From contig NZ_JAJNKA010000002.1 of assembly GCF_021533215.1 (NCBI RefSeq), forward strand, positions 423,001-487,000: 64,000 nucleotides of DNA, read 5' to 3'. Position 1 is the first letter of the stretch. Each line of letters opens with the position of its first letter. The DNA is from Portibacter lacus (GTDB lineage: Bacteria > Bacteroidota > Bacteroidia > Chitinophagales > Saprospiraceae). A program made the translations under genes and the position numbers. The notes under the pieces are model-generated. The model searched no databases, was not told the origin of the DNA, and saw nothing but the letters and a program-made list of their open reading frames with translations. This document shows, in pieces, positions 604 to 18,745 of this stretch.

Positions 604-626
604 TGTTGATTGTCAAATAAATTTAA

Positions 627-1244: not shown

Positions 1245-1268
1245 TGTTGATTGTTAAGTAAATTTAAA

Positions 1269-1886: not shown

Positions 1887-1954
1887 TGTTGATAATTAAA
1901 CTTGATCATATAAACCTGCAATTTGCGCTGATACAGCTTTTCAAAAGTAGGAAT

Positions 1955-3424
1955 TTATTGGACAAGCATTGTATTACTGACGAAGTCGAATAGACATATA
2001 GACCTAATCTTAAAGTAGGTTATAATCAAGTCAAGGTTCAAACTAACTTGATTACTAGAATCATTTATCATTTGTGAACGAGCATCATTTAAATCAGTAA
2101 GAGTTACAGCGCCTGCAAGATATTCCCGCTGAGATAATAAATAAATCTCTTCTGATTGTTTTAAGCGGTCTTCCACATAATTTAATCTGGTTTTAAGATT
2201 ATTAAAAGTGGTTACCAGAGATTCTAAATCCATTTCTACATCTTGCCTTTCTTGAGCAAAAATGATCTCTTGTTGTACATATTGTTCTTTAGCAATTTCT
2301 AGGTTAATTTTTCTTTCTTTATAACCATTTAAAGGTATCGAAAAAGAAATTCCTAAATTCTCCTGATCTTGCATTCCTATCAACAATTGATCAATATCAG
2401 TATTTGTATTATTAGCCCCGCCCGATGCAGAAATAGATAATGATATGTCTTTTGTTTGATCGATTCGATTGATTTCTGCTTCTAAATCTTTCTGAAGAGC
2501 ATAATTTTTATAATTGAAGTAAGTGTTGTTTGCAAATGCATCCTTCACTTCTATTGTGTTCATGTCACTAGGCAAATCAATGTTAGGTTTCATAAGTTGG
2601 ATTGCACGATTATCGAAGGCCTGAATTTGAATAAATTCATTCAACGCTATCATATTGATGGTTAGAGATGACTTTAATTCCTCAATATTTTCAGTTAGTA
2701 TTTTTTTCTCTAATTCTAGACGAAGAATTTCTATTTTTCCTATGGCACCGAGATCATATAATCTGCTTTGAATTTGAGTTAGCCTATCATTATTTTCTGC
2801 TGCTTCTAGGAGGATTTCAAGTTCTTGTTGTAGTTCAAAAGTCGAGCAGTATTTTTCTATAATTTCTGAAATGATCTGTTCACGGACGTGACTTTTTTCT
2901 AAGGTCAATTTTTCCGAAAGGATATTAATGCGTTCTCGCTCCCATTTCGTTTCATCAAATTGAAAGGGAGAGTATTGATAGCCAAGTTTAAAAGGTGTGA
3001 AAAAGTAATTTCTAGAATAAGGTAAAGTCTGAGTTCTTAGAATATCAAGTCTTTGAATACTGCTAACTGCTGTGAGTTTTCCAAAATTTCCAGGAAGTTC
3101 ATAATCTGCAGATATTCCAATGCTATTGTACATGGTGGATCGATTAACGAAAGCATCTCTTCCATCTGGTAATGGTCTAGATTCTATTGCTCTTGAAAGG
3201 TTAGGAAGAATTCCATCTAGGTAGAAATTGGGTTTTAAAGATTCATTAAATTTTAGCAGGTTGAGTTCACCTTCTGTGATTTTTAAATCATGGGCTTTAA
3301 TTTCTAGTGCATTTGAAAGTCCTTTATCAAGTGCCTCAACTAAAGAAATTCTTAAGGTATCTTCTTGAGAGTATAAAATAATTGAAGAAATTAAAAATAG
3401 GAAGGACGCAAGAAATGTTTTCAT
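1955..3424 (-). CDS. TolC-family outer-membrane efflux channel protein
   Basis: A 489-residue protein with a Sec signal peptide (MKTFLASFLFLISSIILYSQ) and the long helical hairpin pattern of outer membrane efflux proteins. Two repeats each start with an ALxxN-like region (EALDKGLSNALEIKAH near residue 30) followed by coiled segments (ERINILSEKLTLEKSHVREQ; LQKDLEAEINRIDQ). The expected role is the outer-membrane exit duct of a tripartite RND pump. The adaptor and two RND subunits are encoded 3.4-11 kb away on the same strand. The start codon lies 86 bases from a 10-bp repeat array (3511-3550), matching the layout upstream of the adaptor/RND operon, so shared control is likely. I cannot tell which RND protein it pairs with. 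Confidence 0.85.
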   Translation of the reverse strand: MKTFLASFLFLISSIILYSQEDTLRISLVEALDKGLSNALEIKAHDLKITEGELNLLKFNESLKPNFYLDGILPNLSRAIESRPLPDGRDAFVNRSTMYNSIGISADYELPGNFGKLTAVSSIQRLDILRTQTLPYSRNYFFTPFKLGYQYSPFQFDETKWERERINILSEKLTLEKSHVREQIISEIIEKYCSTFELQQELEILLEAAENNDRLTQIQSRLYDLGAIGKIEILRLELEKKILTENIEELKSSLTINMIALNEFIQIQAFDNRAIQLMKPNIDLPSDMNTIEVKDAFANNTYFNYKNYALQKDLEAEINRIDQTKDISLSISASGGANNTNTDIDQLLIGMQDQENLGISFSIPLNGYKERKINLEIAKEQYVQQEIIFAQERQDVEMDLESLVTTFNNLKTRLNYVEDRLKQSEEIYLLSQREYLAGAVTLTDLNDARSQMINDSSNQVSLNLDLIITYFKIRSICLFDFVSNTMLVQ

Positions 3425-3510
3425 AGTTATTAAGCTAGGTGATGAACTTAAAAATAAGAAAACTGTGTGAAAATGGAGGTGTAATTATAAAATTTTGGTC
3501 AGCTTAAAAA

Positions 3511-3550
3511 TTTAATTGAATTTAATTGAATTTAATTGAATTTAATTGAA
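3511..3550. repeat. 10-bp direct-repeat array 1 (4 x TTTAATTGAA), candidate operator
   Basis: Four perfect head-to-tail copies of TTTAATTGAA, followed by a degenerate fifth unit (3551-3560). The unit is close to palindromic (TTnAATTnAA) and its 10-bp period is one helical turn, so a bound protein would see every unit on the same DNA face. The array lies between tolC (minus, start 86 bases away) and the first small peptide gene (plus, start 127 bases away). The same unit occurs at 6794-6843 and 14386-14415, each time next to a peptide gene. Confidence 0.8.
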
Positions 3551-3677
3551 GCTAATTGTTTCAGCTCTTTAATAAATGTTTATTTGAATCTATATTTAAG
3601 TACAGCATGTAAATGGATTCCCTTTAAAACTGCTGTTAGATTTTCAATATTTTTCTTAATATTTAAACTTTGAGTCA

Positions 3678-3884
3678 ATGAAAAAATTAATAAAAGTTTT
3701 GCTTTTCACAGTGTTACCCCTATTTGCTTTCCTTATTATTAGTCCATCACCAGCAAATGCTAGAATGGGAGATGACCTTATGGTAATAGCTAAGGCCTGT
3801 CCAGGAGGTGGTACATATGATGTATGCTGGGCATATTGCGGTGGCTGTTATTGCAATCCTTCTTCTCAAACTCTTTGCAATTAA
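3678..3884 (+). CDS. Small exported Cys-rich peptide 1 (NVEALA-like)
   Basis: A 68-residue precursor. The N-terminus is a clear export signal (MKKLIKVLLFTVLPLFAFLI) with a likely cleavage after SPANA. About 40 mature residues remain, with six Cys (AKACPGGG, DVCWAYCGGCYCN, TLCN), suggesting disulfides outside the cytoplasm. The architecture (short leader, CPGG, Cys-rich tail, propeller lipoprotein next door) recalls the NVEALA peptides of Bacteroides; the match is by style, not by alignment. The stop codon overlaps an in-frame ATG of the next gene (TAATG at 3882-3886), suggesting translational coupling. A role as secreted peptide, toxin or signal is inference. Confidence 0.7.
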   Translation: MKKLIKVLLFTVLPLFAFLIISPSPANARMGDDLMVIAKACPGGGTYDVCWAYCGGCYCNPSSQTLCN

Positions 3885-3904
3885 TGCACAGAAAAAGTAT
3901 TTTT

Positions 3905-5128
3905 ATGAATAAAAGTAAAATGGTTAGCAGACTCATATCAAATTTCATATTGGTGTTTATGCTATCCATTTTATTAGTAGCCTGTAATTCGGATAAGAAT
4001 CAAAGTGAGGTTACTAATAACTTAGCTCATGCAGAAGTGGTGAATTACAATGAGCCAGAAGACTTTATAATGTCTGAACATATAGACAGCATCACCTTTG
4101 TACCTCTTAAAGCACCATATACTTTTGGATGGGTTTCTGAAAGAATAAAAATAACAGATCAGCATATTTACTTTCTTTATACACCATATCCAGATGCATG
4201 TTATCTTATCATTTGTGATCGAAAAGGAAATTTTGTTCATCAGATCGTTTCTGAGAGCAATGATCAACAAAATATTGTGACGATTAGCGATATTGAAATT
4301 CTTAATGATACACTTTATGTATTGCATGATGACAAGATTTCAGTGTATAACACGTTCGACTTTTCTAAAATAGGGGAGTCTATCTTTTTGCAAGATCGAT
4401 ATCAAGAATTCGAAAAAACAGCATTTGGCTTTTTATGTTATAATGCAGCTCAAGGGCTTCATAAATATGATAATAAAGGTATATTCTTATCCGCGGACCC
4501 TCTTCTAGATAATTATCCCTCAAATATTTTGGATCTACTGTATCATTTTAGTGATATCATAAATTCAGAAAACTTTTATTTTTATTTTGGTTATAATCCA
4601 TCTCTTTATATCGTAGAAAACAGGAGTGGAAAGTTGATTAATAAGATAACAAATGATGTAGGAAAGTATAATATTACAGAAAATGAATTAAATTCTATTA
4701 TTCAAGCTGGCCCTGACGTAGGTGCTGTGAAAAATAATATTTGCAGAACCTTACATAAAATGTGTTATATGAACAATGTTTATGATCTAAGTCAGAAAAT
4801 CATTCATGTAAGTAGGTTTAATAACCGTACCCACTTTCTGTCTTATGACAAAAAGACTAGAGAGCCTACCCTGTACGATAAAGTTATCAATGATACTGGC
4901 CTTCCTTTTCTAACAGAATATGAGTATTTCTACAATTTTGGCTCTTACAAGAATGAAATTATAGGCGTCATCGATCCCGAATATATTAATATGCAACTAG
5001 AGGATATAAGTGATCAGAAAATCCCTTCTAACTGGGATAAAGTAGCAGATCAGATTAATGAATTTTCGAATCCTGTAGTCGTCCTTTATCTCATGAAAGG
5101 ACATGATAAAGAAGTAGTTGCATTGTAA
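3905..5128 (+). CDS. Beta-propeller-like lipoprotein paired with peptide 1
   Basis: A 407-residue protein starting at ATG 3905 (MNKSKM); an in-frame ATG at 3884 overlaps the stop of the peptide gene and is an alternative start. The signal peptide ends in a lipobox (SILLVAC, Cys about residue 27), so it is a lipoprotein. The early motif VNYNEPEDFIMSEHIDSITFVPL, followed by repeated short beta-rich units (YLIICDRKGNFVHQI; TLYVLHDDKISVYNTFDFS), is typical of Bacteroidota 6-bladed-propeller lipoproteins related to the BF3164/DUF5128 types. Exact family membership is uncertain. It directly follows peptide 1, so it may bind, sense or protect against that peptide. Confidence 0.65.
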   Translation: MNKSKMVSRLISNFILVFMLSILLVACNSDKNQSEVTNNLAHAEVVNYNEPEDFIMSEHIDSITFVPLKAPYTFGWVSERIKITDQHIYFLYTPYPDACYLIICDRKGNFVHQIVSESNDQQNIVTISDIEILNDTLYVLHDDKISVYNTFDFSKIGESIFLQDRYQEFEKTAFGFLCYNAAQGLHKYDNKGIFLSADPLLDNYPSNILDLLYHFSDIINSENFYFYFGYNPSLYIVENRSGKLINKITNDVGKYNITENELNSIIQAGPDVGAVKNNICRTLHKMCYMNNVYDLSQKIIHVSRFNNRTHFLSYDKKTREPTLYDKVINDTGLPFLTEYEYFYNFGSYKNEIIGVIDPEYINMQLEDISDQKIPSNWDKVADQINEFSNPVVVLYLMKGHDKEVVAL

Positions 5129-5138
5129 AGTAATCTCC

Positions 5139-5213
5139 TGATGTTATCGCTTTTAGGGATGACATCAATCTTGTTTTGTATGATGATTTAGCACAAAGAT
5201 CTTACATCGCGAT
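5139..5213. repeat. Dispersed palindromic intergenic repeat, divergent copy
   Basis: The stretch contains CTGATGTTATCGC-ttttag-GGATGACATCAAT, an imperfect hairpin, then GATCTTACATCGC and AAGCGC. The same succession occurs at 29612-29689 downstream of the symporter gene. It lies between convergent genes, where such repeats usually sit. It could help terminate transcription in either direction. Confidence 0.5.
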
Positions 5214-5292
5214 AAGCGCAGTTGTAGATTTATAATCTTAATAAAAATAATACAAATCTAAAATAACCTAAATCCGTATATAAGACAAAAAG

Positions 5293-6423
5293 TCATTTAC
5301 TAAACCTAATGATAATCGGATTTTGTTCATTGGCTGATTCATTGCGAGGAAGATCAGGACGAGGGCCAATTTGAAAGTCGCTTAAAAAAATTAGTGCACT
5401 ATCTATATCGGTAGTGTAACCATAAATCCCGGTTGAATTGTCAGAATAAATAAAAGGCATGAAAGTTTTAACGTTATAAGGTAAATCAACTTTCGAGGAG
5501 TTTATTGACCCGCCGTTGTCTTTATGTAGATTGAATACTTGAAATTCCCCTTCATAATAAGCGACCACTATATCTTCATTTGGAAAAAAGTAGAGGATAG
5601 GATGAACAATATTGTTTTCTAAAAGAAAGTCTAAATAATACTTTGGGGATTCGCTCTGTTCTTTTGGGTAATTGGTAAGGTCGAATTGATTTATCCCAAA
5701 GTCAATATTATTCGTTTTTTTTATGGAATTTTCGTTTAGTTGATAAATATTACCGGTAGTACCATTTATAAAGTAGTTCTTTTGATTTTTCATGAAGAAT
5801 GGGTTCATAATATATCCCATTAATCTAACCCGATGCGCTGTATTAGGAAGATGTTCGGAAAGTAAACGCCCTTCTGCAAGAGAATAAAATTTCAATAGCG
5901 GATCATCTACAAAAGAATAAAATACAATCAAGTTATCATCTAAATGAAAAAATCTATGTACTGAAATGAAATCAAGGTTAACTGACGATTTATAATTACC
6001 TTCAAGATCGTATATAAACAATTTCCCTCGTGGATCTAAGATTTCTAGATTGTTATTATAGATTGCGAAATATTCGATTGAACTGTATTTTCCTGGACCT
6101 TCTCCTTGATTATTAATTTCATACCTAAAATCCCCATTGTCATCAAATGTGAATATAGAATTCTGAGACTTGTCTAGAATAAAAAAATAAGTATCATGTA
6201 TTAAAATTTGATTTATTCTCCTTATGTGAGATTTTTCCGATGTTTCTAAAGGTACGAATTCTACTTCTGGAAAAATTGTACTTGGTTTCACCTTTGGGAT
6301 ATTTTCAAGATCAATTAAAATATCTACAGAGTCTAAGTTTTCGGTTGAATTACAATTAATTAAAACTGAAAAGCACAGAATCATAAAGATAATTCTTAGA
6401 GCCTCTAAAATATTAAGTTTCAT
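5293..6423 (-). CDS. 6-bladed beta-propeller lipoprotein paired with peptide 2
   Basis: A 376-residue lipoprotein: signal peptide with lipobox FSVLINC (Cys about residue 25). The sequence has the hallmarks of the Bacteroidota 6-bladed beta-propeller family: PEVEFVPLETSEKSHI near residue 50, HDTYFFILDKSQNSIFTFDDNGDF, and the conserved GEGPGKY turn near residue 106, followed by EILDPRGKLFIYDLEG. It starts 15 bases after the stop of peptide 2 on the same strand, so the two are almost certainly one transcript. Family function is not firmly known. An extracytoplasmic binding role for the neighbouring peptide is inferred from the repeated pairing in this locus. Confidence 0.75.
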   Translation of the reverse strand: MKLNILEALRIIFMILCFSVLINCNSTENLDSVDILIDLENIPKVKPSTIFPEVEFVPLETSEKSHIRRINQILIHDTYFFILDKSQNSIFTFDDNGDFRYEINNQGEGPGKYSSIEYFAIYNNNLEILDPRGKLFIYDLEGNYKSSVNLDFISVHRFFHLDDNLIVFYSFVDDPLLKFYSLAEGRLLSEHLPNTAHRVRLMGYIMNPFFMKNQKNYFINGTTGNIYQLNENSIKKTNNIDFGINQFDLTNYPKEQSESPKYYLDFLLENNIVHPILYFFPNEDIVVAYYEGEFQVFNLHKDNGGSINSSKVDLPYNVKTFMPFIYSDNSTGIYGYTTDIDSALIFLSDFQIGPRPDLPRNESANEQNPIIIRFSK

Positions 6424-6438
6424 ACGCCCCTTTGTATT

Positions 6439-6660
6439 TTAATAACATGCGCAAAAATCTGAAGCAGACCCAGTGTATATGCAATTGTCAGGCAAAGTCC
6501 ATTGTAGGCAACAGCCACAGTTGGAACTGGCGCAATTTATTGTGGGGTTGCCGTCATTTGCAATATAAAAGCAGGGCTCTCCCAAATTATAAAATGCCAT
6601 TGAAAAAAATACTGTGACTGAAATCACAAGAGTAAATGTAAGAACTCGAAATCTTTTCAT
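6439..6660 (-). CDS. Small exported Cys-rich peptide 2
   Basis: A 73-residue precursor with a basic-hydrophobic leader (MKRFRVLTFTLVISVTVFFS) and a mature part with eight Cys (EPCF, INCASSNCGCCLQ, DNCIY, DFCACY). Its sequence is unrelated to peptide 1 beyond the architecture: leader, about 45 mature residues, dense Cys, and a propeller lipoprotein immediately downstream. A 10-bp repeat array lies 133 bases upstream of the start, at the same kind of distance as for peptides 1 and 3. An overlapping plus-strand ORF is a shadow. Function unknown. Confidence 0.65.
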   Translation of the reverse strand: MKRFRVLTFTLVISVTVFFSMAFYNLGEPCFYIANDGNPTINCASSNCGCCLQWTLPDNCIYTGSASDFCACY

Positions 6661-6793
6661 TTTTGCTGATATTGTGAATCCATTATTAAAAAAATTGAAT
6701 TCTAATCAAAAAATAAGAAACAAAGTGAATTAGCGCTAAAACATTTTGATTATCATTCGTAATGTATTTGTTTTCAATCACATACACAACACC

Positions 6794-6843
6794 CATAATT
6801 GAACATAATTGAATTTAATTGAATTTAATTGAATTTAATTGAA
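6794..6843. repeat. 10-bp direct-repeat array 2 (5 units), candidate operator
   Basis: Two CATAATTGAA units followed by three perfect TTTAATTGAA units, all in 10-bp phase. The array lies upstream of peptide 2 (minus strand, 133 bases to its start) and 22 bases past the end of the second RND gene, so here it can serve only the peptide/propeller transcript. Unit sequence and phase match arrays 1 and 3. Confidence 0.8.
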
Positions 6844-6865
6844 AATTAAAACCTTCCCATGAAGC

Positions 6866-9800
6866 CTAAGACCTCGAAAATTTCACAAATGCGGGCATAA
6901 TTAAACACACGGCAAAAACAGAAAAAAACAATCCTCCCATCGCACCAACTGCTAATGAAAACCAAAATGGCTCCTGATCACCAAACATTAAAAATGGTGT
7001 TAGTCCTAATATCGTAGAAAAAATGGTCAACAAAATCGGTGTAATCTTTCCTGAAAAAGCCTTCGTATAAATGGCTACACTTCGCCCATGTTTCACAGAT
7101 AAGCGATTATAATCACTCCATATCAGAATCATACTATTCACCGTGATTCCACTCACCAGAATAAAGGAAGTGTAACCTCCTTGGTCAAAAGTGAAATCAA
7201 ACAAGTAGAAGGTCAGAAATATGCCAATAAATGAAATAGGAATCATCAATACAATCGAAATCGCTGTGCGAAATGATTCAAAATGTACCGCACAAATCAT
7301 AAAAATCAATACAATGACCAATCCTAGTAATCCGTATTGCTTCTTAGCCTCTTCTTGAAAAAATCTGTTTTGAAGCTTTTCCAACTCATATCCTAATGGC
7401 AATGTTGGTCTGAATTTCTCGATACATTCGTCCAAGTATTTATAACCGAATCGCGCAGATCCTGTGTATTCCCATTTTAAAAGCAGTAAATATTGTTGGT
7501 TTTCTTTGTGTAGACTGCTAGGTAGTTTTAACCTTTCCACTGAGCTTATCCCACTTAATGATAATTGACTACTGTCTTTCGATATCACCTCATTGTTCAG
7601 ATTCCAAAACCCCTTTAACATGGAATTATCACTGATCATTCGGATCGGAACATTTTCACTTGAGTAACCTACAAACTCTCTTAATGGGTTTACATTCTGG
7701 ATAACACCATAAAGGTCTCCAAGTTCGAAACCCGAGGCAATCATAGCACGTTTATCATAATCAAAGTGAAAAGCATATTTTTCCCGACTGTACCAGTCTA
7801 AGTTCCCATCTGTATCCACTTCTTTAATCCTTGGATGTGACTCAAGGAGCTCCGCGAATGCACTCGAAATAGTACGAAGTTCTGGTAAATTATATCCTCT
7901 CATCTTTACACTAAACTGAGGCGGTCTGGAAAAGCTGCCATTCGAAAACCCCTTTCCCACACCGTAAATATTCCATGTTGCTCCACCCAGATTCACTGCC
8001 ATTGAAGTCAGTCTGTTTTTTAAAACGAAAGGAAAGTAATAATCATTTTGATCGACGAATGTGATACGAAAAGATGCCCGTTCGCCATTGCTGATATTTA
8101 AAATGTAGTTTTTCACCTGATGTGGTAAATATTGAGAAAGGTAGGATTCTACCATGGCACATAGTTGGTCTAATTGCTCTAATGTACTTCCATCTGGTAG
8201 TCTTACATTGGCATAGAGAATTGTCTCTTCATTGTTTCTAAAACTCCCTCGTTCATAAACGTATCGATAAAAAAATCGAAAGCTCCCACCTAGAATTTTT
8301 TCCACCCAAGGCTTTATATCTTCCTGGTAAGTCTCTGAACCAATGGTATGGTTATACCATGAAAGCCCTTCTATTTCAGAAGGGATAAGAAAAACGGGAA
8401 GCCCGAATGCCCATATGCTTGCCACGATGACCCATCGCCGATATTGCTTTATTTTGGAAAAAAGACTTTCCCAGAATGAAAATGCTTTTAAATTTTTATT
8501 CTCTACAAGAGCTTGTTGCTCCTCCCTCCTCTCCCATCGATATTGCAATGCAGGAACGAATAAAAAAGAAACCAATAATGAAATGGAAAGGTTAATCATA
8601 ATTACTCGCGCAAACTCTTCCAGATTTTCACGCCATAACTCAGGAAGAAAGAATATTACAATGAGCGAAGCAATGGTAGTTAGCGTTGCAGAAATCAAAG
8701 CTGGAAAAATCGAAAGGTTCTGGTAGTGTCTAATATGATGAAGAATAACGAGTGCATTGTCTATAAGAATTCCGAAACTTATGGTAATTGCCGCAAGCGC
8801 ATAGAGATTAATATTGACATCCATCACATTGTACGCTATTACTGCGAGACCTAGGTTTACAAGAAGACTAGTGATAATAATGATCGTATAACTTAGCTTT
8901 CTGTAAATAATAATTACAAACAAAAGTAAAAGGGATAGCGAAAGAAGACTCCTTAAGCGAATTTTTCGCAATTCTTCTCTTAGATATTCTGTCTGATCAT
9001 TTTCTAATAATAAATCGTATCCCGGAGGTAGTTTTTCTCGAGCATCTTCGATCTTGTCCTTTAATAATCCAGCTGTGACTAGATGGTTAGCATTTTTCTC
9101 AGGAATGCATTGAATTCGAACATTAGACCTCCCGTTAATTCGATATATCGATTTCCGTTCTTTAGGTTTTCGAAATACTGTTGCTACATCATCTAGGTAA
9201 TAATTAAAAATGGAATCAGATTTCACAAGCATATGAGAAAGACTAGACTGCTGTGCTTGGCCTAGTTTAAGAGAAATGATGTCTTCATTATAATTTACTT
9301 CAGAAAGAGATTCATCTAAACCATAGGTATTCACTGCTGCTCGAATATCCTCCTTTGTAATATTACTTGCTAGCATTTTATCTACGTTATACTCGATGAC
9401 CCATTCGGATTCTTCGCTTCCTTCTAGTCTTATTTCCTTCACACCTTCTACTAAAGAAAGCAGCGGAATTAACTGGTCGCTTGCATATCGAGATATCTTG
9501 TCAGCAGAAAGTGAGGAAAACAAAGAATAGGTAAGTAAGCTGGTATTGGTGTTTTCTTCCAGTCCTGAAAGTTTGATGTCAGGAAATTTAGTTGCTGGGG
9601 GAAGTGAAGGGTAGATTTCTCTAACGCGACTGGCGACTTCAAACCTTAAATAATCGAGATTTATATCCTCTGCTACATCTAGTTCGATCTCAGCTTGCCC
9701 GATATTAGAGCGGGAGTAAATACGCTCTATTCCTCCGATTCTAGAAAGTCCAGCTTCTAAGGGCGTCGTTACTTTTAACTCTACGGCTGAGGGAAGAGCA

Positions 9801-9949
9801 TTAGGATAACTAGCGGTGACAAAAATTTTCTTAGCCTTTCTTTGTGGGTTGAGCTGAAGATTTAAGCCTTCGAAAAAAAAATAACTGCATGCGGTTGCCG
9901 CAAGGAAAAAGATAATAATAGAAAAGCTATATTTTTGTATATTTTCTAT
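6866..9949 (-). CDS. RND-family inner-membrane efflux transporter (second RND of operon)
   Basis: The reading frame spans about 1027 residues, normal for RND pumps, if it begins at ATA 9949, which overlaps the TAG stop of the upstream RND gene as ATAG. It holds N-terminal TM1 (KYSFSIIIFFLAATACSYFFF), the porter domain (PQRKAKKIFVTASYPNALPSAVE), the TM2-TM6 block with GILIDNALVILHHIRH, a second periplasmic domain and a second TM block (LVSGITVNSMILIWSDYNRL). No in-frame ATG, GTG or TTG exists before TTG 9523, which would remove TM1 and most of a porter subdomain (142 residues). Initiation at a rare codon is therefore inferred. Expected role: proton-driven export with the adjacent adaptor and TolC. 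Confidence 0.8.
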   Translation of the reverse strand: MENIQKYSFSIIIFFLAATACSYFFFEGLNLQLNPQRKAKKIFVTASYPNALPSAVELKVTTPLEAGLSRIGGIERIYSRSNIGQAEIELDVAEDINLDYLRFEVASRVREIYPSLPPATKFPDIKLSGLEENTNTSLLTYSLFSSLSADKISRYASDQLIPLLSLVEGVKEIRLEGSEESEWVIEYNVDKMLASNITKEDIRAAVNTYGLDESLSEVNYNEDIISLKLGQAQQSSLSHMLVKSDSIFNYYLDDVATVFRKPKERKSIYRINGRSNVRIQCIPEKNANHLVTAGLLKDKIEDAREKLPPGYDLLLENDQTEYLREELRKIRLRSLLSLSLLLLFVIIIYRKLSYTIIIITSLLVNLGLAVIAYNVMDVNINLYALAAITISFGILIDNALVILHHIRHYQNLSIFPALISATLTTIASLIVIFFLPELWRENLEEFARVIMINLSISLLVSFLFVPALQYRWERREEQQALVENKNLKAFSFWESLFSKIKQYRRWVIVASIWAFGLPVFLIPSEIEGLSWYNHTIGSETYQEDIKPWVEKILGGSFRFFYRYVYERGSFRNNEETILYANVRLPDGSTLEQLDQLCAMVESYLSQYLPHQVKNYILNISNGERASFRITFVDQNDYYFPFVLKNRLTSMAVNLGGATWNIYGVGKGFSNGSFSRPPQFSVKMRGYNLPELRTISSAFAELLESHPRIKEVDTDGNLDWYSREKYAFHFDYDKRAMIASGFELGDLYGVIQNVNPLREFVGYSSENVPIRMISDNSMLKGFWNLNNEVISKDSSQLSLSGISSVERLKLPSSLHKENQQYLLLLKWEYTGSARFGYKYLDECIEKFRPTLPLGYELEKLQNRFFQEEAKKQYGLLGLVIVLIFMICAVHFESFRTAISIVLMIPISFIGIFLTFYLFDFTFDQGGYTSFILVSGITVNSMILIWSDYNRLSVKHGRSVAIYTKAFSGKITPILLTIFSTILGLTPFLMFGDQEPFWFSLAVGAMGGLFFSVFAVCLIMPAFVKFSRS

Positions 9950-12900: not shown

Positions 12901-12972
12901 CACAAGACCTAAGGTAATGGTCAGTACAGCAATAGGTCGATATATTAAGTATTTTACGATATCCCTAACAAT
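9946..12972 (-). CDS. RND-family inner-membrane efflux transporter (first RND of operon)
   Basis: About 1008 residues, full RND length, if started at ATT 12972, 16 bases after the adaptor stop. From there the frame reads IVRDIVKYLIYRPIAVLTI, the canonical RND N-terminus. The first GTG (12903) would start inside TM1. Features include the porter segment PDIPIPKISIQVSASEKTARVIEN, the TM4 motif GVGLMIDNAIIIIDNIRQEQ (proton-relay Asp region) and a C-terminal repeat with SMVGLIITAGIIVNDAILKLD. It acts in the inner membrane. The operon carries two complete RND proteins, so a heteromeric pump of the MdtBC type is possible; homology alone does not prove it. Confidence 0.85.
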   Translation of the reverse strand: MVRDIVKYLIYRPIAVLTITLGLVVLSLFFGREVPISLLPDIPIPKISIQVSASEKTARVIENTITRPLRNQLLQLHHLEDLHSSSRNGSAYIDLTLRHGTDTDLSFIEANEKVDQAMSFLPRNIDRPRVIKSNISDIPVFYLAILPKNEANEDLRQLSEFTEKVIKRRLEQEEEIAFADLHGLEYPEVIVFPNQNLLQSLGINEEELASAISNSNIDVGNVIIRDGQYQYNVELSNKIEKIDDLKNVYVSIQNQIYQLKQLANIVVRPKDKRSAYTFEGKEGIIMSVRKKDDANNFSLKTKMDTLLADFKLSYPDLNFKVINDQSEVLEISYQNLRTSLLYGILFSSIILFFFFREWRLPLLIIITVPLGLLLALGGFYLLGLSINIISISGLILGVGLMIDNAIIIIDNIRQEQNKLALNEAITVGTKDVLKPLLSSAMTTCSVFLPLILISGIAGALFYDQAISISITLIASLLVSAVVLPVLARILMKDKNPSEKKGIWDKGHHKAVVFFLKNRFLLLVIFLILSALGIFLISQINRTAFPELSTDELEVSIDWNENIGIEESIIRVNQLRAYLSDDILWLSAIIGEKQFILTAEESSINESQLLIKSKSSEEALSLVESITAYLSQQFPKADSKSFRKKNTFDYLFSTDEYPLISYAYPSQSSELPDPEEIQPLVDDIKTVIPEFEVPPVDEFLNLTIRLDILEEYGVSYDALLSKLKTIFNANAITEMRSSDRMIPIVIGHSMEKEDFYDAIHKTLIQNKNGNNIPLGQFISVQKRRDYKSIKGTLAGEALEIPSINYREGLEDDLRKQITKDGDFFVSFGGSIYQTRKIISQLWRILLIVFILLYLILAAQFESLVQPILVLVDVPLSLFGGMLFLWIGGETLNLVSMVGLIITAGIIVNDAILKLDMINKNTRSGQSVDEAIIHASGRRLRPIVMTSITTILAFLPVLFSSGIGAEIQKPLALTVIGGLVVGTLSSLIFLPVLYRIFNPKRVILHKSTKT

Positions 12973-12988
12973 TAAATGAACGTGATAT

Positions 12989-14083
12989 TTATTTCTCTAA
13001 ACTTTCAGCAAGCTCAACTTTCGCATCATGATCAAGATTGAGGTTACCTTCAGCGATAACTAGATCCCCTTCCGCAAGACCATCTATTATTGCAAGAGCA
13101 TCTTTGTTTTCATAACCAACAGTAACATATTTCCACTTAGCTAATCCGCTCGCTTCATCATAGACAAAGATCACATCTCGATCTGACCTGGACACTAATG
13201 CAGACTTAGGAACAATTAATTGATTTTTCTTATGGCTTTCTACTTCTACTCTGACATTCATTCCTTCGAAAAGGTGCTGACCACTGCCTATTATTTTTGC
13301 GTAAATGGTAACAAGTCCATTTTTGTCAACAACTGGATTAATTTTCGATATGTTTGCTTTTATTTCTTGATCTGGAGAAAGTAGAGGATATGCAGTGATC
13401 GATGTTCCAATTTTTGTGGAAAGGGCATCAGATTCTAACATCATAATTTTAATTTCAAATGAGGAAGGGTCTATAATGGTGCAGATTTCTTCTCCAGCAT
13501 TAATGTATTCTTTATCATTGATTTTTATGTCGCTTATCCACCCAGATATCGGGGAGAGTGTTCTTTTTTCTTCAAGTCTATACTGAATTTCTTTTAGCGC
13601 AGATTGTGCCTTATTTAATCCTGAAAGAATATTGATGTATTCTAGTTTTTGCGGACTAACACTTGAGTCTTGGTCGGCAAATCCACCATCTCTGATGATT
13701 CTTTCATTTTTAGACATTATGGCATCATCATATTCATTTTTTCTCTGTTCTAGCTGTAATTGCAATTCCTGAGCATCCTGTTCGATGAGTACTTCACCTG
13801 TTTTAATATACTTACCTTCTAATAGGTTATAATTTATGATTTGTCCATCTGATGTTGATTTGATATTGACTTTACGATCTGCTTCGATTCGTCCGCTCAG
13901 AATTTTCTGAATGGTAAAAGTTTCTAATGTAGCTTTTACAACGCGGACTTTTGTTTTCTGATCTATTAAGCTTGCCTCTTCTTTCGCCTTAGCCGTGACG
14001 GTTTCTAAGTCTGGTTTTTTAGCATTGCAGGAAGGCAGAAAGATGATCAATATTAATATTGAAAGCATTCTAGTGTGGAGCAT
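12989..14083 (-). CDS. RND periplasmic adaptor (membrane fusion protein) lipoprotein
   Basis: A 364-residue HlyD/AcrA-type adaptor. A signal with lipobox (IIFLPSCNAKK, Cys about residue 19) anchors it in a membrane. A barrel-sandwich half (ILSGRIEADRKVNIKSTSDGQIINYNLLEGKYIKTGEVLIEQDA) is followed by a helical hairpin (LQLQLEQRKNEYDDAIMSKNERI) and the second lipoyl half (KRTLSPISGWISDIKINDKEYINAGEEICTI), then beta-barrel and membrane-proximal domains. The order matches the AcrA family. The gene lies between the 71-residue gene (4-base gap) and the first RND gene (16-base gap), so this is one operon. It should bridge the RND proteins to TolC. Confidence 0.9.
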   Translation of the reverse strand: MLHTRMLSILILIIFLPSCNAKKPDLETVTAKAKEEASLIDQKTKVRVVKATLETFTIQKILSGRIEADRKVNIKSTSDGQIINYNLLEGKYIKTGEVLIEQDAQELQLQLEQRKNEYDDAIMSKNERIIRDGGFADQDSSVSPQKLEYINILSGLNKAQSALKEIQYRLEEKRTLSPISGWISDIKINDKEYINAGEEICTIIDPSSFEIKIMMLESDALSTKIGTSITAYPLLSPDQEIKANISKINPVVDKNGLVTIYAKIIGSGQHLFEGMNVRVEVESHKKNQLIVPKSALVSRSDRDVIFVYDEASGLAKWKYVTVGYENKDALAIIDGLAEGDLVIAEGNLNLDHDAKVELAESLEK

Positions 14084-14087
14084 AGAA

Positions 14088-14303
14088 CTATAAGTTTTCG
14101 TAGGGTGTGTTTTTAATGATATGCTTACCTACGATACAGAGATATATTGCTCGCTGTTGCTTGATATCTAATTGTTTTCGAGGAGGAACTGTTATTCCTT
14201 TTTCTGAAAGCTTTTGTTTTAAGAAATGAGGCGTGACTTTTAGCTCTTTTGCTAAGCGAGTTCTAGTCTTGAAAGGACTGAAAGTGATTTCATGGTTCGT
14301 CAT
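14088..14303 (-). CDS. Small 71-residue protein, possible helix-turn-helix regulator, first gene of pump operon
   Basis: A short basic protein without signal peptide. The segment TRTRLAKELKVTPHFLKQKL (residues about 13-32) has the spacing of a helix-turn-helix: LAKEL, turn at KVTP, second helix FLKQKLSEKG. It is the promoter-proximal gene of the adaptor/RND operon, with a 4-base gap to the adaptor. Array 3 lies 82 bases upstream, so it is a reasonable candidate for a local regulator binding the repeats. I do not recognise a named family; the DNA-binding role is inference from pattern only. Confidence 0.55.
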   Translation of the reverse strand: MTNHEITFSPFKTRTRLAKELKVTPHFLKQKLSEKGITVPPRKQLDIKQQRAIYLCIVGKHIIKNTPYENL

Positions 14304-14385
14304 ATGTAGAGTTGTTCATGTACAATGGGGTGCTTAAATATATAAAAATATTGGGTGGTTTTGGCAATTTGAAAATGTTAAAATT

Positions 14386-14415
14386 TTCAATTAAATTCAA
14401 TTAAATTCAATTAGG
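14386..14415. repeat. 10-bp direct-repeat array 3 (3 units), candidate operator
   Basis: On the plus strand two perfect TTCAATTAAA units plus TTCAATTAGG (8 of 10); on the minus strand this reads as TTTAATTGAA units, identical to arrays 1 and 2. It sits between the pump operon (minus, 82 bases to the first start) and peptide 3 (plus, 152 bases). This mirrors array 1, which sits between tolC and peptide 1. Confidence 0.75.
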
Positions 14416-14567
14416 AGGGTTGTGTAATATATTGAATGACAGTATATTGCCGAGGTGTTAATTGTTTAACATTCTTGAGTGTTATAAAGTAATTATAGAC
14501 TCAAAAATGTCTAACTTATTTCGGTTAATCCTAAGCCAAATTTTAAATTAGGAAAAATTTAATTGTT

Positions 14568-14762
14568 ATGAATATTTTAAAAGGTGTATTTGTATTAATT
14601 GTTATGTTTATTTTTTATCTACCAGTTTCTGCAAATGTGGGTGTATGTGCAGAGGGTTTAAGTCAAGGTAAAGGAACAATTCATTGGGATCCTATTAATG
14701 GTGAAGCAGAATTTTGCCCTCATGATGATGCTTTAGTATGGTGTTGTTATGATCCATGCTAA
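14568..14762 (+). CDS. Small exported Cys-rich peptide 3
   Basis: A 64-residue precursor: hydrophobic leader (MNILKGVFVLIVMFIFYLPV) with likely cleavage after VSA, then about 41 residues with five Cys (GVCAEG, EFCPHDD, VWCCYDPC). The odd Cys count allows an intermolecular bond or a modified Cys. The C-terminal WCCYDPC-stop is repeated almost base for base in a relic at 18389-18412. A hairpin follows 50 bases downstream, then two paralogous lipoproteins. The A-rich leader before ATG 14568 fits Bacteroidota initiation. Function unknown; grouped with peptides 1 and 2 by architecture and context. Confidence 0.7.
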   Translation: MNILKGVFVLIVMFIFYLPVSANVGVCAEGLSQGKGTIHWDPINGEAEFCPHDDALVWCCYDPC

Positions 14763-14781
14763 GAATAAAGCCATATTAATC

Positions 14782-15942
14782 ATGAAATTCAATATGATAA
14801 TTATTTTGATTTTATTGCGTGAGACTATTTTTAACTACTCACGCAATTTAATTTTAACATCTTGTCTTAGCATTTTATTTATTTTAATGATATCATGCAA
14901 TGAGGATGGAAGAATTGGCAAGTCTGATTTTCATTTCGAAGTGGTCGATTCACTGTATGTTCAAAATGTATTTGATTTGGAGTATCTCGATAAAGATATG
15001 GGAAATGAATCATTTTTATTTTACAGTTTAAAAAATAAAATGATTTACCTAATAGATAGAAATACAAAAAAGACAATTGAAATTCCATTTCCTGGACAGG
15101 CAACATCAGCGTCAGGATATGGGCTTAAATCTGGATGTTTTGTTACTTTTAATTCTGAAGAATCAATAGTTTTATGGACAAATAAGGGGTATCATTTCTA
15201 TGACTTAACAGGTAGTTTATATCGTAATGTTGATTACAAAACAAACTATTCACATCCTATATCAGCTTGGTTCAATACTGTTGAGCAGGGTGATCAATTG
15301 CTTGCTTATCAAACACGAGCTATAGATCTTAATGATGATGGAAGTTTTTCATTCGAGGATTCACGGCTCGTAGAGCGATTCAGTTTTGATTCTAAGATCT
15401 CTAATTTATATAAAGGCTTTCTAGATGAGGACCCCAGATTATTAATCGGAGAATTTAAAAGAAAAGTAGTTTTTGAAGGAGATGATTATCTTCATATATT
15501 ATTTAGCCCTGATAACACGATCAGTACCTATTCTTTAAAAGATAGTTTTGATTTTGTTAGACAAGAAAAGATTGAAATACCTAATTATGAACCTCCTTCA
15601 ATTCCTCGTTTTTCCTACGAGGAATTATTAATTAACCCAGACATATATTGGTTTTTTGGAGATGCTAAGCACTTTTACTTGATTTACAAACTAGGCATAG
15701 ATCCCAAAGAAGTTAATTTTAATAATTCAGGCATATTGGACGACGCGTCTTTAAATCAAGTGGTCATATATATGTATATCCATGATCGCACTACTGGTCA
15801 TGGTTATTCAGTGGAACTTCCGAAATTATTACCTGGTTTCAAGGCAAAATTGGAGGACAATTTATTTTTAGGTCAACCATCTTCTATTCTAAGAGAACAT
15901 GAAATGGGAAATGTCTTCTATATCGTAGCGTTAGAAAATTGA
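14782..15942 (+). CDS. Lipoprotein of propeller-like type, paralog a (follows peptide 3)
   Basis: A lipoprotein of about 386 residues; lipobox FILMISCNED. Starting at ATG 14782 gives an unusually long, two-part leader. An in-frame TTG at 14815 gives a normal one (RETIFNYSRNLILTSCLSIL) but lies inside a hairpin stem (14814-14847), so the start is uncertain. The body begins FHFEVVDSLYVQNVFDLEYLDKD and has beta-rich repeats (FLFYSLKNKMIYLIDRNTKK; ESIVLWTNKGYHFYDLTG). It resembles the DUF4221-type lipoproteins of Bacteroidota, but I am not sure of the family. The next gene is a clear paralog. An extracytoplasmic partner for peptide 3 is inferred from position. Confidence 0.65.
   Translation: MKFNMIIILILLRETIFNYSRNLILTSCLSILFILMISCNEDGRIGKSDFHFEVVDSLYVQNVFDLEYLDKDMGNESFLFYSLKNKMIYLIDRNTKKTIEIPFPGQATSASGYGLKSGCFVTFNSEESIVLWTNKGYHFYDLTGSLYRNVDYKTNYSHPISAWFNTVEQGDQLLAYQTRAIDLNDDGSFSFEDSRLVERFSFDSKISNLYKGFLDEDPRLLIGEFKRKVVFEGDDYLHILFSPDNTISTYSLKDSFDFVRQEKIEIPNYEPPSIPRFSYEELLINPDIYWFFGDAKHFYLIYKLGIDPKEVNFNNSGILDDASLNQVVIYMYIHDRTTGHGYSVELPKLLPGFKAKLEDNLFLGQPSSILREHEMGNVFYIVALEN
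14814..14847 (+). promoter_or_regulatory. Perfect 10-bp hairpin between peptide 3 and lipoprotein
   Basis: ATTGCGTGAG pairs perfectly with CTCACGCAAT across a 14-base AT-rich loop, followed by a T-rich stretch (TTTAATTTT). It lies 51 bases after the peptide 3 stop and contains the TTG that would give the lipoprotein its best signal peptide. It could attenuate transcription after the peptide, protect the short peptide mRNA, or mask translation of the lipoprotein. Confidence 0.6.
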
Positions 15943-16065
15943 TTATTTTTAAAATGCATATTAATTTTTGTTTAATTATTAACACGTGGAATAAAATCTA
16001 AAATTTTCATTTTGTTTAAGAACGTTGTGTTTTAGTGCATTATAAAAATTTGATTTCTTTAGAAA

Positions 16066-17208
16066 ATGAAGAACCTTATGAATAAAAATAAGAGTGGATT
16101 TAGACTTAAATTTTCACTCTATATTCTTGCAGTATTGACTTCAATAATTGCATTCATTTCTTGCGAAGATCGCAGTGATAGCGTATTCGATGATTTATCT
16201 TTTAATATTGTCGATTCTATGTATGTCGACGGTGTCTATGACTTGGAGTATCTGGACAAAGATGGGGATAATGCGAAATTCTTATTTTACAGTTTGAAGC
16301 AGAAATTGATTTTTCTCTTGGATCGAAAAACTAAAGAGGCCATAAAGATTCCCTTTCCTGGTCAGGCAACATCTATCTCAGGATATTCCTTTAAGTCTGC
16401 TTGCTACTTTAACACGGATGATAAAGAATCAATAGTCATATGGACAGACAAAGGATATCATTTTTATGATGGTGAGGGTAACTTACTCCGAAATGTGGAT
16501 TTTAAAACTTCCAATTCTCATCCAACTTCAGTTTTCTTTAAAGTAACGTATATTAATAATGAATTGATAGCCATTCAAAGACACGGAAGGGAGTATTTAA
16601 AGGATGGAACTTTGTCTAAAGAAAAATCAAAATTCATACAAACCTATAATTTTGAAAATGATGAGACGAATTTGTATAAGGGATTCAAAGATGATAATCC
16701 TACCTTAGCATCTGCTGATTTTTTGCTAAAGGCATCCTTTGAAGAAAATAAGTTTATACATATTTTACTTAGTCCAGATAACACGATAAGTACATATTCC
16801 ATTCAGGATAGGTTTGAATTGGTGAAGAGTACAAAGATGGATATTCCTGATTATTCACCGTCATACCAACTTAGAGCTAATATTGAAGAACAAGTTATCC
16901 AGCCTAATATTTATAAGCTCTTATCTGATGCCCAATTTTTCTACATTATTTACAAACCGTTTATTGATCCTGGAAGTACCGGTATTAAATTTAACAATGG
17001 AATGATAGATCCTAAATCATACGATTTAGTAGATTTATATTTGTACAAATATGATAGATTATCAGGTGAAAGCAATTCGATTAAGTTACCAAAATTATTA
17101 TTGGGATTTACTGCGAAAATGGAAGTTGATTTATTTCTAGTTAAGCCCTCCTCTTATATACATGAAAGTGAAAAAGGAAATGTTTTCTATATCGTAGACT
17201 TAGAATAA
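16066..17208 (+). CDS. Lipoprotein of propeller-like type, paralog b
   Basis: A 380-residue lipoprotein: basic N-region (MKNLMNKNKSGFRLKF), hydrophobic core and lipobox IIAFISCED. It is a paralog of the preceding gene along its full length. Shared landmarks include VVDSLYV/IVDSMYV, DLEYLDKD, KIPFPGQATS.SGY, a DKGYHFYD turn, LSPDNTISTYS and the C-terminal GNVFYIVDLE. The 123-bp spacer contains no small peptide gene, so the duplicate lacks its own peptide partner. No function is assigned. Confidence 0.7.
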   Translation: MKNLMNKNKSGFRLKFSLYILAVLTSIIAFISCEDRSDSVFDDLSFNIVDSMYVDGVYDLEYLDKDGDNAKFLFYSLKQKLIFLLDRKTKEAIKIPFPGQATSISGYSFKSACYFNTDDKESIVIWTDKGYHFYDGEGNLLRNVDFKTSNSHPTSVFFKVTYINNELIAIQRHGREYLKDGTLSKEKSKFIQTYNFENDETNLYKGFKDDNPTLASADFLLKASFEENKFIHILLSPDNTISTYSIQDRFELVKSTKMDIPDYSPSYQLRANIEEQVIQPNIYKLLSDAQFFYIIYKPFIDPGSTGIKFNNGMIDPKSYDLVDLYLYKYDRLSGESNSIKLPKLLLGFTAKMEVDLFLVKPSSYIHESEKGNVFYIVDLE

Positions 17209-17295
17209 AGCAAGAAGTGAAAAATAATAAAACAGAATTTATATAGTAATTTAATGATTCACGTTATCATTAATCAGATAGCATTAATTTTTACA

Positions 17296-18303
17296 ATGAA
17301 ATTCTCGTATTTAAATATTTATTTTCTTGCATTACTTTTCATTGGCTGCAATGAAAAACAAGAAAGTGTTACAGAGACTTTTATAGAGAAAAATATAACG
17401 GCAGAAGTAATTCATATTAATGAATTTATTTACCGACCATCTGATATGATCATTTCAGATAACTATTTGGTTATTCATGATAAATATGATGAAAGCTTGT
17501 TTAAAATATTTGATTTGGATGATCTTAAAAATTCAAAATCTTGGGGTGAGCTAGGCGATGGTCCCGATAAAATAAAATATGTTTCTTATAATTCCCTATC
17601 CAGAATTAATAATGGATTTGGATTTGTAGATAAATATACATTTAGACAATTCCAGATTAAGAACAACCTTGATGTGATTGAAGCCCCGTCTATAAACTTA
17701 AGTAAAAATCTTGGGATAATTAATGGCTTCTGTAGATTAAATGATAATTTATTTATCGCTAACTCAATAAGTGAAGGTGATTTATATGAACATGTTTTTC
17801 TTAAAGGAAATGAAATAATCGAATCAGAATTTGGGTCTTATCCTGAAGAGGATATACCTCAACGAGAAATCATAGATAAGCAAAGGTATTATAGCAAATT
17901 TGGTCTGTCGAATGAGAAAAAAAGTAGATTATTTACTTTTTATTACAAGCAAAACATCGTAAAAATGTATGATTTTGATGGTAAATTAATAGGAGAAACT
18001 AACCTTGAATTTGATGAAATCATTAAAAAGGATCAAAAAGCATTAGCTTTTATGTCTGGCACATCTAATGAAGATTATATCTTTTTAATTAACCCGAATA
18101 AAATACAAAAAGATGTAAAAAATGATCCAGAAAACTATCATCCGAATTTGATAGTTATGAATTGGGAAGGCAAATTAATTGCGAAGTTGAAAATTCAAGA
18201 ACCGATAGGATTAATATCAGTAGATTCAAATAATAAAGTTTATGGTATGACAAGTGATTTAGGTGATAGAATATTTAAATACGATTTAAGTTCAATATTA
18301 TGA
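17296..18303 (+). CDS. BF3164-like (TolB-like propeller) lipoprotein
   Basis: A 335-residue lipoprotein. The start at ATG 17296 (MKFSYLN) gives a standard leader with lipobox ALLFIGCNEK; an in-frame ATG at 17254 adds 14 residues. The sequence follows the BF3164-like pattern: IHINEFIYRPSDMIISDNYLVIHD, then a Gly-rich turn (GELGDGPDKIKY near residue 90), FGFVDKYTFRQFQIKN, and late blades ending NKVYGMTSDLGDRIFKYD. In Bacteroides such lipoproteins commonly neighbour NVEALA peptides. Here the next sequence downstream is the relic of a small peptide gene. Confidence 0.7.
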   Translation: MKFSYLNIYFLALLFIGCNEKQESVTETFIEKNITAEVIHINEFIYRPSDMIISDNYLVIHDKYDESLFKIFDLDDLKNSKSWGELGDGPDKIKYVSYNSLSRINNGFGFVDKYTFRQFQIKNNLDVIEAPSINLSKNLGIINGFCRLNDNLFIANSISEGDLYEHVFLKGNEIIESEFGSYPEEDIPQREIIDKQRYYSKFGLSNEKKSRLFTFYYKQNIVKMYDFDGKLIGETNLEFDEIIKKDQKALAFMSGTSNEDYIFLINPNKIQKDVKNDPENYHPNLIVMNWEGKLIAKLKIQEPIGLISVDSNNKVYGMTSDLGDRIFKYDLSSIL

Positions 18304-18343
18304 TTCAGCCCCCTAATGACCAGATAATAATATAAGTTAATAA

Positions 18344-18412
18344 ATGTGGTTTAATAACCGATACCTTTGCAATTTCAGCATCGACAGATGGTGCTGTTAT
18401 GATCCATGTTAA
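18344..18412 (+). pseudogene. Relic of a fourth small Cys-rich peptide gene
   Basis: The frame ends DRWCCYDPC-stop. At DNA level 24 of 26 bases match the 3' end of the peptide 3 gene (14738-14763). Only 22 codons are open and no export leader precedes it, so this is a decayed or truncated duplicate. A TACCTTTG promoter-like element (18362-18369) lies inside it. The rest of the intergenic stretch 18304-18745 shows only an unconvincing 24-codon ORF (18448-18522) and a promoter-like element near 18718. Confidence 0.6.
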
Positions 18413-18717
18413 GCACAATTAAAAGTCAAACACTTATGAAAATGGGATGAATTTGCTACGACCTCCTTATCACACAGATTATGTAGAAGGCAATTTAACT
18501 TTCGATGCATTTATCCCTTAAGTTATAGGAGCTAGAGGAGCTCTATTAGTTTATAGCTTGATTGATTTTGTAATCTATATCGTATTTCGATTTCAAAAAA
18601 CAATTCATTCTATGAAATACCTTTTTCACTTATTAACCTGATAATGCCTCACTTGTACTAGTTCTTAGAAATAACAAATCCACAACAATTTCATCTCACC
18701 GCCCATTTAATTTTTAA

Positions 18718-18725
18718 TACTTTTG
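18718..18725 (+). promoter_or_regulatory. Bacteroidota -7 promoter element (TACTTTTG)
   Basis: It matches the TAnnTTTG consensus and ends 20 bases before the ATG of the next gene, giving a short leader. I see no good TTTG element at the usual -33 distance, so support is partial. Confidence 0.4.
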
Positions 18726-18745
18726 TAGAATAAATAAGAAAGAGA

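Follow-up and report, generated by a model that had tools for sequence, protein, structure and literature searches.

A 64,000-nt stretch of the Portibacter lacus genome (contig NZ_JAJNKA010000002.1, positions 423,001–487,000; hereafter the window) carries, at positions 1955–18303, a cluster in which genes for small Cys-rich secreted peptides and for lipoproteins are interleaved with tolC and with an operon encoding a 71-aa protein, reg71, and a resistance-nodulation-division (RND) pump. Peptide, lipoprotein and pump genes recur together across the phylum Bacteroidota, and in several genomes a 10-bp repeat peculiar to the genome precedes the peptide genes; both observations suggest a system for peptide release that has not been described. 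The peptide–lipoprotein–pump gene set is real and conserved, and its linkage and shared regulation are very probable. The gene set, its linkage, the position of the repeat arrays, the array common to the units and the regulator family beside arrays are shown by sequence comparison, and the full mechanism, a regulon for peptide release, is considered slightly more likely than not. Within the open-licence papers searched, no description was found of the system or of a link between these lipoprotein families, an RND pump and 10-bp arrays; the system as a whole is regarded as new, with component parts that belong to known fold families.

The cluster comprises five presumed transcription units, in the order tolC (−), peptide 1 and lipoprotein 1 (+), peptide 2 and lipoprotein 2 (−), reg71–adaptor–RND1–RND2 (−) and peptide 3 followed by three lipoproteins (+). 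Gene calling confirmed the composition given in a preliminary description of this DNA, namely three Cys-rich secreted peptide genes, each followed by one or more lipoprotein genes, together with tolC, an adaptor, RND genes and a 71-residue gene.

Linkage at adaptor loci

Related loci were collected through the adaptor, for which a search of 298 genomes of the window's family returned 28 genomes at E≤1e-30. One of these is the window genome; from the remaining 27 came 28 loci, two of them from G058 (genomes and loci are cited here by G and L numbers). From a named collection of 84,980 species, 70 adaptor loci were obtained, of which 16 were dropped as duplicates and 54 kept, 38 from Bacteroidota by title and 16 from others. 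Besides the window, this gave 66 Bacteroidota adaptor loci (28 + 38). Lipoprotein families were called with our own hidden Markov models (HMMs), and peptides as ATG-initiated open reading frames (ORFs) of 45–115 aa with a signal-like start and at least four Cys after it. As controls we used 39 loci of the best-scoring non-orthologous RND adaptors with a start >9,500, with no genome contributing more than two. They came from 22 genomes, that of the window among them, out of 26 searched; the remaining four had no adaptor fitting the rule. Control DNA totalled 738 kb and came from the window's family, whereas the named loci were drawn from the whole phylum.

Conserved synteny across Bacteroidota, the check suggested in the preliminary description, was borne out. 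Propeller genes were found at 47 of the 66 loci, comprising 21 of 28 family loci, which are not independent for propellers since the HMMs were trained on L040–L067, and 26 of 38 named loci, which are. Secreted peptides with at least four Cys were present at 23 of 66 loci (11/28 family and 12/38 named), and both propeller and peptide genes at 10/28 and 11/38. Neither gene type occurred at any of the 39 controls. At least two RND genes were present at 16/28 family and 24/38 named loci. A tolC-like gene lay near the pump in 27 of the 66 loci (8/28 and 19/38), and in 13 of the 39 controls. When only genes within 6 kb of the adaptor were considered, an analysis that omitted 1/28 and 3/39 loci in which no adaptor reached the HMM threshold, the named set retained propellers at 25/38 and peptides at 11/38 loci, against 0/36 and 0/36 in controls. 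Arsenicibacter rosenii SM-1 (L086) and Spirosoma arboris HMF4905 (L093) are examples of named isolates with pump, propeller and peptide genes.

Among the 16 non-Bacteroidota loci, four had propellers, four had peptides and three had both. Cys-rich small secreted ORFs and weak DUF5128-like genes were seen near the adaptor in L120, L128 and L136 (Stygiobacter, Ignavibacteriae and Melioribacteraceae).

An S26-type signal peptidase gene was observed near the pump at 13 of the 66 loci (3/28 family and 10/38 named; for example L061 18654–19718, confirmed by Pfam, L115 and L121) and at none of the 39 controls; this linked peptidase may mature the peptides. A gene resembling the formylglycine-generating enzyme (FGE)/sulfatase-modifying factors was seen near pump or peptide genes in L064 (2923–4074, PF03781) and, by similarity, in L055 (16053–16817).

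Ten-base-pair arrays and the reg71 family

One 10-bp unit (in one register, AATTGAATTT) is repeated in three arrays of the window. Array 1 (3509–3558, 5 copies) lies between tolC and peptide 1, array 2 (6796–6843, 4.8 copies) lies upstream of peptide 2 and array 3 (14386–14413, 2.8 copies) separates the reg71 operon from peptide 3, so that together they flank all five presumed units. Their distances are 84 nt to tolC and 82 to reg71, in agreement with the earlier description, and 119, 135 and 154 to the peptide starts, in place of the 127–152 given there. Within the 6.3-Mb genome the arrays are confined to the locus. All seven matches to a 25-mer with up to three mismatches fell in it, as did all five genome-wide matches to a 20-mer with up to one mismatch; the reversed-pattern control gave none.

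At the equivalent place in ortholog loci of the family, period-10 arrays of other units were found: CATTTTGACG in L043, GAAGTTTGGG in L054, TTCCAGTTAT in L060 and TTTTGGGCGA in L047 (2.6 copies). Repeats of 10 bp in about two copies were found in L048, L098 and L121. The Bacteroidota −7 box was seen downstream of the L043 and L047 arrays and of each of the two L098 repeats, and was not found at the five window promoters or in L054 and L060.

Exact period-10 runs (≥10) occurred 40–200 nt upstream of 8/38 peptides (three in the window), compared with 6/657 other locus genes and 5/511 control genes, and no peptide of the 38 had a run of period 7–9 or 11–15 in that interval. At period 10, 3/83 loci had a unit repeated at two or more distant intergenic sites, whereas periods 9 and 11–13 gave no such locus, and controls gave 0/39 at all these periods; at period 8 the counts were 3/83 loci and 1/39 controls.

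The array was further used as a search tag in G024, G058 and G116, each scanned for its own unit with up to two mismatches. These genomes were picked because an array had already been seen in them, so only the nine new sites constitute a test; G249 and the window genome added none. Own-unit sites numbered four in G024 (on one contig), two in G058 and seven in G116 (on five contigs), with no match to the reversed controls. Nine of the 13 sites were not previously known (two in G024, one in G058 and six in G116). Each of the nine is followed by a small ORF whose start is signal-like, at 89–121 nt in the eight cases measured; seven of these ORFs have at least four Cys. The next gene downstream was of the DUF4221, DUF5128 or TolB_like type at six sites. 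Of the other three, one was followed by an unlabelled 423-aa ORF and then DUF4221 (L182), one by a lipoprotein-like ORF without a label, truncated at the contig edge (L181), and one by none of these (L180, 10385). In L178, a single array precedes a peptide, a DUF4221 lipoprotein and RND1 on one strand. In L181 a peptide gene and a divergent RND2 gene stand on either side of the array, and L180 likewise has a divergent RND2 gene. These arrangements indicate that pump and peptide genes share an array in independent genomes. The earlier proposal of one regulon is therefore well supported by the restriction of the array to the locus, its position beside every presumed unit, the new copies in the three genomes and the single-array unit of L178.

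The first gene of the pump operon, reg71 (14088–14303, −), encodes a putative helix-turn-helix (HTH) protein. A single-sequence search of the 298 genomes returned only reg71 itself, and comparison with raw ORFs of the loci gave weak neighbours (E 0.02–1.3) that form a family of 11 members after iteration. Members are 64–83 aa, except one cut by a contig end, and have a core resembling KTR-x-x-x-A-x-x-L/Y-G-I. The family profile found many more members in the 298 genomes, one of them beside the L043 array. Its count of 220 genomes at E≤1e-3 is too high, because weak matches inside frames of about 430 codons add to it. Among the named isolates, only Arcicella aurantiaca DSM 22214 (L083) had a regulator gene, with no array called at that locus. 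Among 12 regulator-bearing loci, period-10 runs were present in seven and runs of other periods from 7 to 14 in zero to two. Of the surroundings of 30 family genes, seven held period-10 arrays, against none for periods 9, 11, 12 and 14 and two, one and two for periods 8, 13 and 15; exact runs showed the same trend. Five of these loci had been counted before as pump loci (L184, L186, L187, L188 and L202), two of them with arrays. For 25 of the 30, the nearest 1.5 kb contain no labelled pump gene, and five of these 25 hold an array. The possible regulator of the preliminary description thus proved to be a member of a tiny-HTH family often found beside 10-bp arrays.

The closest PDB sequence match of reg71 was the MerR-like DNA-binding domain of RacA (E=7.3e-5, positions 12–42); a BldC chain scored E=0.93. 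The HTH_BldC profile did not match reg71 and gave 14.3 of the 77 bits required for a family member in L085 (E=0.027). The structure model, with a predicted local distance difference test score (pLDDT) of 74, has three helices and no clear wing. PMC5859096 describes BldC of Streptomyces as a 68-aa MerR-like protein that oligomerises head-to-tail on 9-bp direct repeats of variable number, with consensus AATTXXXX(C). Like BldC, reg71 is a tiny protein of about 70 aa with a putative single HTH domain, the window unit also contains AATT, and the arrays of about 2–7 copies beside reg71-family genes are direct repeats as expected for BldC-type regulators. The spacing is however 10 bp rather than 9 and the unit varies by genome. 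From size, fold class and neighbourhood, reg71 would bind the arrays in a BldC-like manner. LytTR proteins were rejected as array binders, their repeat spacing being about 21 bp. If reg71 does bind the arrays, its family, with operators that vary in unit at a constant spacing, would allow the study of changing DNA recognition under a fixed architecture.

Pump, lipoproteins and peptides

The preliminary description counted two complete RND pumps; we find instead one adaptor, one tolC and two unlike permeases, RND1 and RND2, which are 22% identical over their best segment. The lipoprotein-like periplasmic adaptor (12989–14083, −) belongs to the RND membrane fusion protein family (TIGR01730, 161.5 bits; cut-off 94.9). 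The permeases RND1 (9946–12960, −, 1004 aa) and RND2 (6866–9949, −) matched NF033617 at E=5e-137 and E=5e-78, respectively. Their superfamily is clear, all subfamily cut-offs were missed, and both score better to multidrug than to heavy-metal RND models. Heavy-metal RND (CusA/CzcA, TIGR00914) was rejected at 295.3 of 701 bits for RND1 and 114.3 of 701 for RND2. The candidate outer-membrane factor, a TolC-like protein of 489 aa (1955–3424, −), matched outer_NodT at E=8.6e-8, under its cut-off. Neither permease has ATG, GTG or TTG at the start position of its relatives. In RND1 (12958–12960, −) that position aligns with ATC, and in RND2 (9947–9949, −) the start is most likely an ATA overlapping the RND1 stop (ATAG). 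The absence of standard start codons may throttle translation of both permeases.

One adaptor, two different RND permeases and TolC recall MdtABC and MuxABC of Proteobacteria. However, MdtB and MdtC are about 50% alike according to PMC7015380, far more than RND1 and RND2, and RND1 reached only 317.6 of 1774 bits for MdtC and 273 of 1584 for MdtB, so that identity with MdtABC was rejected.

The preliminary description took the lipoproteins to be propeller-like. Lipoprotein 2 (prop2, 5293–6423, −) is a DUF5128 six-bladed propeller (122.1 bits; Pfam gathering cut-off 22.9), and lipoprotein 5 (prop5, 17254–18303, +) a TolB_like propeller (43.2 bits; cut-off 29.2). Lipoproteins 3 (prop3, 14749–15942, +, with the real start probably downstream of 14749) and 4 (prop4, 16066–17208, +), which are 48–49% identical, had no Pfam match and thus did not reach the DUF4221 gathering score, and are remote DUF4221 proteins by profile comparison (hhalign 92.8%, E=3.9e-7). 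The AlphaFold model of prop4 (mean pLDDT 71.6) had as its top PDB fold match 3s9j, a DUF4221 protein (E=8.3e-10). For lipoprotein 1 (prop1, 3905–5128, +, mechanical ORF start 3824), the best profile comparison was 28% over 27 columns only, and the term propeller is unproven for it. The other lipoproteins of the window belong to the Bacteroidota families DUF5128, TolB_like and, remotely, DUF4221. Among ten lipoproteins sampled from adaptor loci, Pfam assigned seven to DUF4221, one to TolB_like and two to none. Acidic residues at +2 to +6, examined as a surface signal, averaged 0.91 in propellers with a lipobox (69/100) and 0.58 in adaptors (43/64), a marginal difference (p=0.04). The Pfam descriptions returned for DUF4221, DUF5128 and TolB_like state no function, and the proposed system, if true, would give these families a context.

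The peptide precursors of the window, peptide 1 (3678–3884, +, 68 aa, 6 Cys), peptide 2 (6439–6660, −, 73 aa, 8 Cys) and peptide 3 (14568–14762, +, 64 aa, 5 Cys), have a signal-like N-terminus with the Cys residues beyond it. None belongs to a Pfam or NCBIfam family, and the comparison with NVEALA peptides drawn earlier is therefore not upheld by Pfam. Among 48 peptides with at least three Cys, an unfiltered set of mechanical calls of which a few (e.g. L083 20629, L107 1 and L050 6053) look unrelated, the Cys number was 4, 6 or 8 in 35, and 34 were net negative and 11 positive. This mostly acidic character contrasts with typical cationic antimicrobial peptides. The gene next on the strand after a peptide with at least four Cys was of DUF5128, DUF4221, TolB_like or prop3/4 type in 25 of 45 cases (11, 7, 6 and 1, respectively), or 26 with one prop1. 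The remainder were seven unlabelled genes of 300–500 aa, some of them propellers by separate annotation since L177–L182 carried no labels in this tally, four further Cys peptides, three small genes, three others and two with none.

In G116, the cassettes of L054 and L180 share 174 of the 185 nt between the array and the signal-peptide end, beyond which their mature parts are unrelated. Likewise, a nearly identical leader is common to two unlike peptides in L098. Mature peptides therefore appear to diversify behind a fixed cassette of array, leader and signal peptide, of which the breakpoint is shown by alignment of the cassettes. The DUF805b cis-regulatory RNA of Rfam (RF02914, gathering score 35.6 bits) was observed in the post-array leader of other genomes. 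It matched L048 6722–6756 (−, 42.4 bits) and L181 9836–9871 (+, 39.4 bits) and, at 34.6 bits each, L043 13683–13717 (−) and L047 5979–6013 (+). A peptide frame lies downstream in L048, L181 and L043, and none was called after the L047 site. A pattern for the leader motif gave four matches in ortholog loci, three of which coincide with RF02914, and one in controls. An Rfam search of window positions 1–20000 gave no credible match, RF02914 included.

Proposed peptide release and its alternatives

In the mechanism we infer, a tiny HTH protein of the reg71 family would bind the 10-bp direct-repeat array near promoters head-to-tail, one monomer per helical turn, and would thereby switch peptide, lipoprotein, tolC and pump genes together. 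The precursor would leave through Sec, lose its signal peptide and fold by disulfide formation in the periplasm, from where the assembly of two RND permeases, adaptor and TolC would carry it to the outside. RND pumps can capture substrates from the periplasm, which suits a Sec-exported peptide. The propeller lipoprotein encoded beside each peptide would be its cognate partner, as immunity protein or receptor. Fast diversification of the mature peptides fits agents of cell–cell conflict or recognition, and antagonism with immunity is the purpose favoured here. Peptide release, sensing or self-protection, the roles suggested in the preliminary description, are plausible. In its widest form, the proposal is that Bacteroidota have a dedicated two-RND/TolC pump for the release of hypervariable, disulfide-rich peptides that are made by ribosomes and exported by Sec, each with a propeller immunity protein or receptor, and that in the window's family at least a tiny HTH protein with per-genome 10-bp operators creates private, dispersible regulons; we regard the chances of this as evenly balanced. 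If true, it would add a peptide-release route in Bacteroidota and name a substrate class for an RND branch usually labelled multidrug efflux.

Export of a peptide by an RND protein has a precedent in SwrC of Bacillus, which PMC12096827 describes as exporting surfactin. The system proposed here differs from SwrC in its ribosomal precursors with Sec-type signals, surfactin being a lipopeptide of non-ribosomal origin, and in the presence of tolC, Bacillus lacking an outer membrane. Class II microcins carry a double-glycine leader and leave the cytosol through an ATP-binding cassette (ABC) peptidase-transporter, an adaptor and TolC. They resemble the present system in the small secreted peptide, the partner or immunity gene and the exit through TolC, and differ from it in that signal peptides and RND permeases are found here.

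Several observations weigh against this proposal. By the pipeline filter, which misses real peptides (those of G024 and L048, for example) and was applied to many cut contigs, 43 of the 66 adaptor loci lack a peptide with at least four Cys and 19 lack a propeller. G249 has array, regulator and peptide and no adaptor match at E≤1e-30. The occurrence of the parts apart, which the preliminary description had named as refuting its proposal, was thus seen in part. At E≤1e-30 the adaptor was absent from both same-genus genomes examined. Arrays with more than about two copies were seen in the window's family alone, and the named loci outside it showed none, so that the phylum-wide claim covers gene linkage and not the arrays. 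Two G116 array sites precede peptides with just two mature Cys, several G116 cassettes have no adjoining pump gene and one previously known G024 site directly precedes a DUF4221 gene. Concerning the regulator, one reg71-family gene lies in a control locus (L174), and a Foldseek search with the reg71 model gave no significant match, with Par of pSK1, IF2, excisionases, Rex, RacA and BldC (E=3.2) among the sub-significant ones. Family genes were also seen beside a radical S-adenosylmethionine gene (L189 1929–3162) and a matrixin-type peptidase gene (L212 1824–3153), and the family may run other secreted-product clusters.

The same anatomy could serve signalling without killing, with the peptides as pheromones and the propellers as surface or periplasmic receptors. 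The many peptide/partner pairs in G116, the single array sequence common within each genome and the acidic rather than cationic peptides are consistent with this, and we consider it a possible, though rather unlikely, account. No sensor kinase was recognised among 20 locus proteins run on Pfam, which gave one stand-alone LytTR domain (L066), though no systematic kinase search was made, and a separate lipoprotein for each peptide suits immunity equally well. It is improbable that the genes form an envelope-stress or efflux regulon, with a pump that removes harmful compounds and with peptides and lipoproteins that are envelope proteins induced by stress and only share the regulator. The best permease scores, such as that of RND1 to NF033617 under the subfamily cut-off, are of multidrug type, but other RND loci of the same genomes lack these genes, and mature peptides that vary so strongly while the signal peptide stays fixed would be odd for stress proteins.

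Least probable is thiol or metal handling, in which Cys-rich peptides would bind metal and the pump would export the complex. Most peptides have 4–8 Cys, and RND1 matches the CusA/CzcA profile at E=8e-88, under its cut-off. However, multidrug RND profiles outscore CusA, the predominantly even Cys numbers and the signal peptides fit disulfides, and the sequence diversity among copies would be unexpected for a metal ligand. Finally, the arrays could be contingency repeats subject to slipped-strand change, or promoter-tuning bends, with a role for reg71 elsewhere. Copy number does vary between the near-identical G116 cassettes (about 6.6 in L054 and 2–3 in L180), which is also compatible with an operator. 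The unit recurs at several promoters within a genome and differs among genomes, as for a protein-recognised site, and the HTH family has arrays beside it at loci without the pump too; a non-operator role is unlikely.

The genomic setting of the window locus differs among relatives. In the window genome, about 19.6 kb separate mnmG from a flanking 469-aa gene and contain the entire system together with four closely similar genes in tandem, each of about 205 aa and lying immediately ahead of tolC (window 1–1886 and L183 9347–11886), which are probably Uma2-like. Same-genus genomes are without the locus at this place (L217 3559–3730 and L216 9222–13628). In one, G170, mnmG adjoins the 469-aa gene at 170 bp, which represents an empty site, and in G080 two other genes occupy the site corresponding to the window locus.

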